NCBI RefSeq assembly: GCF_024171955.1
Contig: NZ_JAMTCS010000005.1
Coordinates: 124,001-188,000 of the forward strand
Reading direction: 5' to 3'
Length of the DNA: 64,000 bases
Origin: Promicromonospora thailandica
Lineage (GTDB): Bacteria; Actinomycetota; Actinomycetes; Actinomycetales; Cellulomonadaceae
The stretch's first letter is position 1. Each line of letters opens with the position of its first letter. The notes below the pieces were generated by a model, which saw only the letters and a list, made by a program, of their open reading frames with translations, did not search any database and was not told where the DNA came from. Positions 20,819-22,652 of the stretch are shown here, in pieces. The position numbers were made by a program, and so were the translations under genes.

Positions 20819-21457
20819 ATGGCCGCCGACAACCGACGCACCCCCCGACCTCGCATGACGGCCAGTCAGCGCCGCGAGCAGCTGCTCACCGTCAGCCGCG
20901 GGCTGTTCGCCGAGAAGGGGTTCGAGGGCACGAGCGTCGAGGAGATCGCGGCGCGCGCCGAGGTGTCCAAGCCGGTCGTGTACGAGCACTTCGGCGGCAA
21001 GGAGGGCATCTACGCCGTGGTGGTGGACCGCGAGGTCCAGGCGCTCACGACGGCGCTGACGGGCGCGCTCGGCTCGGGCGGCCATCCCAAGGTGCTGCTG
21101 GAGCGCACGGCGCTCGCCCTCCTCGACTACATCGAGTCGTCCGAGGACGGTTTCCGCATCCTCGTCCGGGACTCGCCCGTGGCGCAGGCCACCGGCACCT
21201 TCTCGAGCCTCATCGGCGACGTCGCCACCCAGGTCGAGGCGATCCTCGAACCGCAGTTCCGGTCGAACGGGCTGGAGACGAAGGCCGCGCCCCTGTACGC
21301 GCAGATGCTCGTGGGCATGATCGCGCTCACCGGCCAGTACTGGCTCGACGCGCGCAGCCCCGGCAAGACCGAGGTGGCCGCCCACCTCGTGAATCTCGCC
21401 TGGAACGGCCTGCACAACATGGAGAAGAAGCCGGCACTGACCCGGCTCTCGCGCTGA
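20819..21457 (+). CDS. TetR family regulator
   Basis: 212 aa. N-terminal helix-turn-helix: RREQLLTVSRGLFAEKGFEGTSVEEIAARAEVSKPVVYEHFGGKEGIY (split over residues about 15-62), with the classic VYEHF recognition helix. The C-terminal ligand domain (about 75-205) is of unknown specificity. There is no ribosome-binding site. The ATG at 20819 (MAADNRR) was chosen; an in-frame ATG at 20810 adds three residues. CACAAT just upstream may be a -10 box for a leaderless transcript. It diverges from tRNA-Gln and glmU; the target is not evident. Confidence 0.88.
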   Translation: MAADNRRTPRPRMTASQRREQLLTVSRGLFAEKGFEGTSVEEIAARAEVSKPVVYEHFGGKEGIYAVVVDREVQALTTALTGALGSGGHPKVLLERTALALLDYIESSEDGFRILVRDSPVAQATGTFSSLIGDVATQVEAILEPQFRSNGLETKAAPLYAQMLVGMIALTGQYWLDARSPGKTEVAAHLVNLAWNGLHNMEKKPALTRLSR

Positions 21458-21523
21458 CGCCGCCTCAATAAACCGGCGAAATGTCTGCCGACTAGTGTTT
21501 TGACCCGGCCGTGCACCCATTCC

Positions 21524-21555
21524 TGCGCTCGCGCAGCAAAGTCTGCGCACGCGCA
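21524..21555. repeat. Two TGCGCNNGCGCA boxes
   Basis: TGCGCTCGCGCA (21524-21535) and TGCGCACGCGCA (21544-21555), each self-complementary, start 20 bp apart (two helical turns), downstream of the TetR gene and of the terminator of the small peptide gene. Possibly a protein-binding pair; function unknown. Confidence 0.4.
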
Positions 21556-21559
21556 AAAG

Positions 21560-21600
21560 AACGAACGCCTCCCCCGGAATTACCGGGGGAGGCGTTCGTT
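21560..21600 (-). terminator. Strong intrinsic terminator of the 27-codon gene
   Basis: 18-bp perfect stem (21560-21577 with 21583-21600; core GCCTCCCCCGG/CCGGGGGAGGC) and 5-base loop. On the minus strand the stem is followed by CTTTTG, a U-rich end. One of the best-formed terminators in the window; it lies 56 bases after the small gene's stop and could also stop the convergent TetR transcript. Confidence 0.85.
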
Positions 21601-21655
21601 CAGCTGGGGATGAAGCTGCGCCGCGATCGACCGCGACGAATAACGTCTTACCTGC

Positions 21656-21739
21656 TCAGATGCCCAGCAGGTCGCGGATCTGCGCCAGCGTGATCCCGAG
21701 GGAGTCGAGCAGGGTCGCGAGAATGTCAACGACGGTCAT
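21656..21739 (-). CDS. 27-aa hydrophobic amphipathic peptide (small gene)
   Basis: Too short for ordinary gene finding. The product starts MTVVDILATLLDSLG and ends with an IRDLLGI tail; 27 residues, over half Leu/Ile/Val, three Asp and one Arg, no cysteine. A helical wheel would place the Asp/Arg/Thr/Gln on one side, so it is probably a membrane-active or membrane-bound amphipathic helix. Support for a real gene: GGAAGGA eight bases before the ATG, a TTGCAG-N17-TAGCGT promoter about 70 bases upstream, and an excellent terminator downstream. It has no leader or processing site and no immunity gene can be named. Candidates: leaderless bacteriocin, modulin-like surfactant, small membrane regulator or type I toxin. 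Function unknown. Confidence 0.7.
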   Translation of the reverse strand: MTVVDILATLLDSLGITLAQIRDLLGI

Positions 21740-21810
21740 GGTGCTTTTCCTTCCAGAAAACGGGACTCACAGGATGATCACCTGCGAGCGGAACAGTGTT
21801 CGCGTTCCAT

Positions 21811-21839
21811 ACGCTAAGCACGCGAGACGGACTCTGCAA
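21811..21839 (-). promoter_or_regulatory. Promoter of the 27-codon gene
   Basis: Minus strand: -35 TTGCAG (21834-21839), 17-bp spacer, -10 TAGCGT (21811-21816), giving a start near 21804 and a leader of about 65 bases containing the ribosome-binding site GGAAGGA. Confidence 0.65.
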
Positions 21840-21874
21840 CGGGAATTGGATATTCGGCTTTAATGAGCACCCAC

Positions 21875-21900
21875 TTTCACCCTGTGATAGTGGGGTGAAA
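21875..21900. promoter_or_regulatory. Inverted repeat TTTCACCC-N10-GGGTGAAA
   Basis: Perfect 8-bp arms at 21875-21882 and 21893-21900 in the AT-rich interval 21740-21962 between the divergent small peptide gene and the methyltransferase gene. Arm spacing of 18 bp suits a dimeric regulator; it lies 36 bp upstream of the small gene's -35 box and 63 bp before the methyltransferase start. Confidence 0.5.
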
Positions 21901-21962
21901 AATGGCACACTCTCCACCGCAAACCGGGCACGGTTCTCACCTGCGCGGCTAGGCTCGCGGGC

Positions 21963-22652
21963 GTGACCTCACCCGAGCACCTCACGACCGTCCGTGCCGG
22001 CTACGACGCCAAGGCGCAGGCCTACACCGACTTCGCCACCGAGGCGTTCGCCGCGAAGCCCCTCGTCCACACGATGATCCGGACGTTCGCCGAGCTCGTC
22101 GGGCAGACGGGCGGCGGCCTCGTGGCGGACGTCGGCTGCGGGCCCGGGCACGTGACCCGGTACCTGCGGGAGCACGGCGTCGACGCGTTCGGCGTCGACC
22201 TGTCCCCCGAGCTCCTGGCGATCGCCCGGGCGAGCAACCCCGGCGTGCGGTTCGAGCTCGGGGACATGGGCGCGCTCGACGTGCCGTCCGGCAGCCTCGC
22301 CGGCGTCGTGGCGAACTACTCGCTCCTGCACACCCCGCCCGAGGTGCTGCCCGGCGTCCTCGCGGAGCTGACTCGCACGCTGGCCCCCGGCGGGCACCTC
22401 CTGGCCGGCTTCCCGGCGCTGGACGACGCCGGGACGCACGACGCCGGGACGCACGCCGGAGGCAGGACCGCCGTGAACGCCGCGACCTTCGACCACACCG
22501 TGACGCGGGCCTGGCGGTTCTCGGTGGACGACGTCGCGGACCTGCTCGCGCGGGACGGCGCGGTCGAGGTGGCACGCCTGGTGATCGCCGCGACCGAGGA
22601 CGTGGTGCGCGGCTTCCCGCAGGCGCACCTGCTGGTCCGCAGGACCGCCTGA
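21963..22652 (+). CDS. Class I SAM-dependent methyltransferase
   Basis: 229 aa, GTG start. Rossmann-fold methyltransferase: motif I VADVGCGPGHVTRYL (about residues 51-65), acidic end of strand 2 FGVDLSPELLAIAR, motif II region LDVPSGSLAGVVANYSLLHTP. Members of this UbiE/TehB-like group methylate small molecules; the acceptor is not predictable. A short DNA tandem repeat (15 bp, twice, about 22425-22457) encodes DDAGTHDAGTHAGG in a surface loop. It converges with the next gene and is separated from it by only two bases. Confidence 0.85.
   Translation: MTSPEHLTTVRAGYDAKAQAYTDFATEAFAAKPLVHTMIRTFAELVGQTGGGLVADVGCGPGHVTRYLREHGVDAFGVDLSPELLAIARASNPGVRFELGDMGALDVPSGSLAGVVANYSLLHTPPEVLPGVLAELTRTLAPGGHLLAGFPALDDAGTHDAGTHAGGRTAVNAATFDHTVTRAWRFSVDDVADLLARDGAVEVARLVIAATEDVVRGFPQAHLLVRRTA

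Follow-up and report, generated by a model that had tools for sequence, protein, structure and literature searches.

A conserved family of 27-codon genes with their own regulatory parts encodes a predicted anionic helix in the genus Promicromonospora

Introduction

SpoVM and MgtS serve as models for small proteins that bind a membrane or a partner protein. The type I toxin TisB of E. coli has 29 residues, starts with MNLVDI and has a structured leader. Type I toxins mostly bear positive residues, according to passages of PMC8309996. The phenol-soluble modulins (PSMs) and LspU of staphylococci are described in parts of PMC12607899 as short helices that lack a signal peptide and are often missed by annotation, and some PSM-type amphipathic helices aggregate outside the cell. 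In Corynebacterium, the very short helical polypeptides PorA and PorH have hydrophobic and polar faces arranged in a heptad pattern and oligomerise into channels, with 40 residues in the case of PorACj (passages of PMC3792995). Leaderless bacteriocins of Actinomycetota lack a leader and are helical, and two of them have 52 residues with three or four Trp (passages of PMC11580447); leaderless bacteriocins are listed as cationic in a part of PMC6131525.

The 27-residue peptide described here, from Promicromonospora thailandica, represents a new family within a familiar kind, the short helical peptide without a signal peptide. Like the PSMs and LspU it escaped annotation, but it is anionic, its gene is monocistronic and its host is an actinomycete, the comparison being one of description and not of sequence. 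The likeness to PorA is likewise one of description, namely the heptad-patterned hydrophobic and polar faces of a very short helix, and the peptide is shorter than PorACj. We know of no mycolic acids in Promicromonospora, and hence of no mycomembrane. TisB is close in length, shares an MxLVDI start and has a structured leader, whereas the Promicromonospora peptide lacks a cationic tail, is similar to TisB only at the level of shuffled sequences and has no recurring antisense promoter. It resembles the leaderless bacteriocins in having no leader and in its predicted helix, but is shorter and acidic. The word Promicromonospora is absent from the main text of PMC11580447, and four terms for phyla gave no passage in PMC11264685. 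The peptide is not mentioned among the papers listed on Promicromonospora, on type I toxins and on small proteins in Actinobacteria.

Results

A complete transcription unit on the minus strand

The window, i.e., the whole 64,000-nucleotide stretch of P. thailandica DNA analysed here, contains an unannotated gene for a 27-residue peptide on the minus strand (21656-21739; Table 1). With a profile of 12 members, 18 copies were found in 12 of 13 Promicromonospora genomes (G000, that of the window, to G012). Copy a adjoins the same TetR gene in 12 of the 13 congeneric genomes, and copy b is a paralogue at another site in six (G000, G006, G007, G008, G010 and G011). The initial annotation had read a complete transcription unit from the letters of the window. 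All the parts that it named lie on the minus strand where it had placed them, and promoter, SD-like site, frame and terminal hairpin recur in 18/18 units.

Table 1. Features of the peptide gene in the window.
Feature	Position	Strand	Basis
Block upstream of -35, CTATCACAGGGTGAAA ... ATTAAA ... GAATATCC	21840..21890	-	Conserved in alignments
Predicted promoter, TTGCAG-N17-TAGCGT	21811..21839	-	TTGCAG 21839-21834, TAGCGT 21816-21811
Leader hairpin 1, GAAC-N3-GTTC core	21790..21808	-	Near inferred 5' end
Leader hairpin 2, TCGCAGG-N7-CCTGTGA	21767..21787	-	Covarying pair; 99.1% of cells in the helix paired
Shine-Dalgarno, GGAAGGA	21748..21754	-	Read from window sequence
27-codon ORF, MTVVDILATLLDSLGITLAQIRDLLGI	21656..21739, stop included	-	27 codons in 18/18 units and coding signature
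Start and stop codons	ATG at 21739; TGA ends 21656	-	Read from window sequence
3'-UTR stretch, CATCCCCAGC	21603..21612	-	Core conserved in alignments
Terminal hairpin AACGAACGCCTCCCCCGG-TAATT-CCGGGGGAGGCGTTCGTT, 18 bp, with tail CTTTT	Hairpin 21600-21560, with tail to 21555	-	Stems in 18/18 units
Two dyads, TGCGCTCGCGCA and TGCGCACGCGCA	21524..21555	.	Starts 20 bp apart, just past terminal hairpin

The G+C content of the intergenic region (21456-21962) is 59.6%, against 73.3% for the window, in agreement with the lower G+C initially noted around the unit. A strict consensus scanner found no sigma-70 promoters in 21400-22000, and the 18-bp hairpin was absent from its terminators because of the short T run. 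With neither called, it is conservation that speaks for a real promoter and a real terminator. The scanner's two terminator-like sites were leader hairpin 2 and a plus-strand site at 21474-21490. Judged by eye, copies b have a weaker T run behind leader hairpin 2, and attenuation in the leader was therefore set aside. In the terminal hairpin of the window, 13 of the 18 base pairs are G-C by sequence; the hairpin with its short T run is a probable terminator. Rfam returned one tRNA-Gln only for the window at gathering scores, and six sub-gathering matches to unrelated families in 21500-21970, mostly over the terminal hairpin.

The ORF carries a coding signature

The ATG, the 27 codons and the TGA are kept in all 18 copies, including that of the window, and an SD-like site precedes every ATG (18 units, by eye). 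The initial annotation was to be refuted by loss of the frame in relatives that keep the terminator; the frame is conserved in 18/18 such units. To measure coding signal, the 78 aligned columns were shuffled 1500 times. The mean BLOSUM score was 1.78 compared to 0.07 +/- 0.35 (s.d.) in shuffled columns and the synonymous fraction was 0.343 compared to 0.193, and neither observed value was attained in any of the 1500 shuffles. Both measures were lower in the remaining five frames. None of the 18 copies has an internal stop, as is also the case in 115 of the 1500 shuffles. Second codon positions are the least variable, with 630 pairwise differences versus 1153 and 1237 at the others. Mean dS is 0.33 in the subgroup with Arg22, 0.46 over all pairs and 0.23 within copies b, and the corresponding dN values are 0.10, 0.26 and 0.16. 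The constraint is thus moderate. Six residues (Met1, Asp5, Leu10, Thr17, Leu25 and Gly26) are invariant in 18/18 members. Judged by these substitution patterns, the ORF in the window is almost certainly a translated gene. The units form a conserved family of coding genes with regulatory parts of their own.

A predicted anionic helix with a heptad pattern

AlphaFold2, run with 12 rows, predicted a helix over residues 3-25 (mean pLDDT 87.6 in the best model and 70-77 in the remaining four; pTM 0.39). This fits the helix without leader or processing site that had been proposed for the 27 codons between start and stop. Heptad positions 4/11/18/25 and 7/14/21 are all Val, Ile or Leu in 17 of the 18 members. 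In the window peptide, Leu, Ile and Val together make up 13 of 27 residues, which is slightly under half and not over half as first counted. Its hydrophobic moment is 0.26 (p=0.14), and p ranges from 0.09 to 0.32 in the other eight members with Arg22 and from 0.0008 to 0.017 in the nine members without Arg22. The amphipathic character suggested for the helix is thus significant in the latter nine and not significant in the nine with Arg22, the window's included. GRAVY values lie between 1.06 and 1.87. The side-chain charge is -1 to -3 in 18/18 members, so simple binding to an anionic membrane is unlikely, and the likeness to leaderless bacteriocins drawn by the initial annotation does not fit this charge.

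The description of the peptide as unrecognised was borne out for the 12 of 16 distinct peptides that were searched: the best matches in Pfam (E 0.047) and PHROGs (E 0.19) were not convincing, and NCBIfam and PADLOC gave no match. The profile of these 12 peptides, A1, which leaves out G006a, G006b, G008b and G000b, matched nothing among PDB sequences.

Promoter, leader and terminal structures recur in all copies

Every one of the 18 copies has a promoter, a two-hairpin leader, an SD-like site and a terminal hairpin. A promoter/leader search pattern, built from these same copies and allowing up to three mismatches, matched at 18 sites across 59 genomes, each a peptide locus, and the reversed pattern matched none. 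The second promoter hexamer is TAATGT or TAACGT in most relatives, versus TAGCGT in the window. Just parts of the block upstream of the -35 hexamer are retained in copies b; from its conservation, this block would probably provide contacts for a regulator or RNA polymerase.

In leader hairpin 2, one base pair is A-U in 11 rows, G-C in two, C-G in one and U-A in one, with two gapped rows. For the whole leader, a covariation score of 0.119 and four cells changed on both sides were each attained in 0/500 shuffles, five further pair types in 16/500 and one pair changed on both sides in 214/500, where related rows can beat shuffles without any structure. Hairpin 1 has four invariant pairs and a loop of variable length among relatives, and its outer pair forms in only 6 of 17 distinct rows. 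We considered control by LexA through the GAAC..GTTC dyad of the leader. A LexA box has fixed spacing, whereas the spacers here are variable (2, 3 or 5), and this candidate was rejected. The stems of the terminal hairpins measure 16-21 bp in 18/18 units, allowing G-T pairs and one mismatch. The core of the 3'-UTR stretch can pair with CTGGG of codons 25-26, as read from the sequence.

Upstream of the leader in copies a, ATCACAGGGTGA matches the inverted leader sequence TCATCCTGTGAT at 11 of 12 positions (by eye). A role for this pairing was dropped because ATCACAGGGTGA is not kept in copies b. The inverted repeat TTTCACCC-N10-GGGTGAAA reported earlier is present in the window but is not conserved as an operator: the left arm TTTCACCC occurs in 5/18 units and the right arm GGGTGAAA in 12/18, all of them copies a. 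A home-made consensus score revealed no antisense promoter that keeps its position across the 18 units.

Past the terminal hairpin, two TGCG/CGCA dyads (TGCGC-N2-GCGCA in the window) recur among the units. The strict pair was found in 4 of 39 genomes, the window's own included, once in each and always at a peptide locus, be it a or b; the strict pattern read backwards as a control gave a match in G007 alone. When one mismatch and gaps of 3-5 are tolerated, at least two dyads are found in 16/18 units within the stretch examined, and G003a and G005a have one each. Their spacing is mostly about 18-21 bp (26 in G008b), and in G001a the pair is shifted downstream. Across the window, the relaxed dyad occurs at 161 places with seven pairs 14-26 bp apart, and the strict dyad at six places with the pair described here as the only one; two or more TGCGCNNGCGCA were seen in 8/100 shuffles of the window. 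The recurrence of the tandem dyads suggests that they may be a protein binding site.

Two loci with different neighbours

The TetR gene is convergent behind copy a in 12/12 cases, and copy a is therefore not the leader peptide of an attenuator. In G000, copy b adjoins NUDIX and RF-1-domain genes (Pfam), the RF-1-domain gene lying downstream in the same direction, and the same neighbours were seen by eye in G008. Copy b of G007 lies between DUF1269 and LysE genes (Pfam), as it does by eye in G010 and G011, and in G006 DUF1269 is nearby. As NUDIX or RF-1-like genes also occur within the fetched 9-10 kb of copy b in G007, G010 and G011, we infer that copy b occupies one old site. Pfam assigned the eight neighbours submitted to it to TetR, methyltransferase, Fe-ADH, FAD oxidase, RF-1, NUDIX, DUF1269 and LysE; there was no ABC transporter among them, and LysE is a translocator.

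The TetR-family regulator of the window (TetR_N, 20858-21457) is 94-97% identical in 7/7 congeners searched, and this neighbour is present in 24/24 other genera of the family. To our knowledge, conservation at this level is unusual for such a regulator. In the stretch that separates the TetR stop from the peptide unit (21470-21500), copies a have one or two GGCATTTCRCCGG-like dyads by eye, with a perfect CCGGCAATTTGCCGG in G010. On the other flank, the window has a methyltransferase gene (21963-22652), and an Fe-ADH-like gene takes this place in G001 and G002 (by eye). About 70-100 bp past the terminator of copy b lies a promoter-like TGGACA-N17-TAA/TAG in the direction of the peptide. It ranks in the top three sense scores of 5/6 b units (in G007b by eye only) and recurs although the genes behind it differ; as the second hexamer lacks the final T, it is weak.

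The family is confined to one genus

A peptide search of 59 genomes gave matches with E <0.03 in Promicromonospora only, the best match elsewhere having E 0.84. The 12 loci with named hosts all belong to Promicromonospora (citrea, panici, kroppenstedtii, sukumoe, soli, iranensis and two further species). Profile A1 found nothing convincing outside the genus in 221 family, 396 order and 394 class genomes, sets that overlap and include G000. Its best outside matches (E 0.0047, 0.0013 and 0.0005, respectively) sit in frames of 160, 473 and 310 residues. The order match L094 (32 residues, E 0.007) was rejected as a relative, its frame having no start codon; the other weak order match in a short frame was G322 (18 residues, E 0.098). 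Viral contigs, plasmids and phages gave no match, two of these searches using one member each as query. In the first 1.5 kb after the TetR gene of the 24 other genera, a strict filter found nothing, and a loosened filter, which recovered 6/6 carriers as a control, found a small ORF in 7/24 genera, none of them family-like by eye. As far as searched, the peptide family is restricted to the genus Promicromonospora.

G002 has neither copy a nor copy b, which indicates that the peptide gene is dispensable there. In this genome, 24 bp separate the end of the Fe-ADH-like gene from the TetR stop, and they contain no unit. In a TetR tree of 13 rows with a midpoint root and 5/10 inner branches open, in which G008 is represented by 315 of 597 bases, G002 falls among carriers, apart from the G000/G008 pair, and loss in G002 is thus the simpler reading.

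Discussion

We tentatively propose that the unit works as an independent gene whose product, an anionic helix with a heptad pattern, self-associates on the membrane or the cell surface. In this it would act somewhat as do other helical peptides that lack a signal peptide, such as the PSMs and the corynebacterial PorA. The mRNA would start near one hairpin and end with a strong one, giving a stable transcript from which much peptide could be produced, with neither a signal peptide nor processing. Self-association of the helix is suggested by the predicted fold, the heptads, the hydrophobic moment and the charge: the Val/Ile/Leu heptad positions, together with a polar face that has the invariant Asp5 and Thr17, would bring the helices together. 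At the membrane or cell surface, the peptide might then act in oligomeric form or as a film, and not as a lone membrane-disrupting cation. Abundance, self-association and location are all read here from sequence features.

A role at a partner protein or membrane is nearly as likely as a self-associating helix. The peptide could be an intracellular small protein of which the helix docks on one protein or a curved membrane and modulates it, a possible reading in view of its size, its own promoter, the lack of a signal peptide, the six invariant residues and its retention in 12/13 genomes. Against this, no partner gene is evident and the neighbours of copies a and b differ, and the TetR gene is present in 24/24 other genera without such a peptide within 1.5 kb downstream. 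The length, the structured leader and the MSLVDI start of copy b in G007 and G011 (MNLVDI in TisB) recall a type I toxin-antitoxin pair and its membrane peptide. Local alignment with TisB nevertheless remained at the shuffled level (p=0.05-0.53 for 6/18 members), no antisense promoter keeps its position over the 18 units by the home-made score, the leader dyad is not a fixed-spacing LexA box, and the peptides are net negative, unlike the mostly positive-residue toxins in the passages of PMC8309996. We thus consider a TisB-like toxin decidedly improbable.

A leaderless bacteriocin or antimicrobial peptide would fit the hydrophobic, predicted helix without an N-terminal leader (18/18) and the LysE-type translocator near copy b of G007, which by eye recurs in G010 and G011; anionic charge in 18/18 members and the lack of an ABC transporter among the eight neighbours put to Pfam make this very unlikely. 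Finally, the structured leader and 3' end and the high conservation of parts of the leader could reflect a regulatory small RNA in which the frame is incidental. Given the coding signature, the 27 codons kept in 18/18 copies and the SD-like site before each ATG (by eye), there is scarcely any room for this reading. To return to the self-associating helix, its most far-reaching form would have mycelial actinobacteria that lack a mycomembrane produce, in bulk, a helix that assembles itself on the surface or forms pores. This would be the first member of a class of signal-less, anionic, heptad-built structural peptides in Micrococcales. Its control would lie with a promoter block of its own, the two hairpins of the leader and, past the terminator, tandem dyads that bind a dedicated regulator; we regard this form as unlikely.

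The family provides an example of a gene below the reach of the family libraries tried, with 27 codons, a conserved promoter, RNA structure and a terminal hairpin at two loci. Its specific leader could act as a search handle for such genes, and the peptide may serve as a test case for the role of short anionic helices in filamentous actinobacteria.
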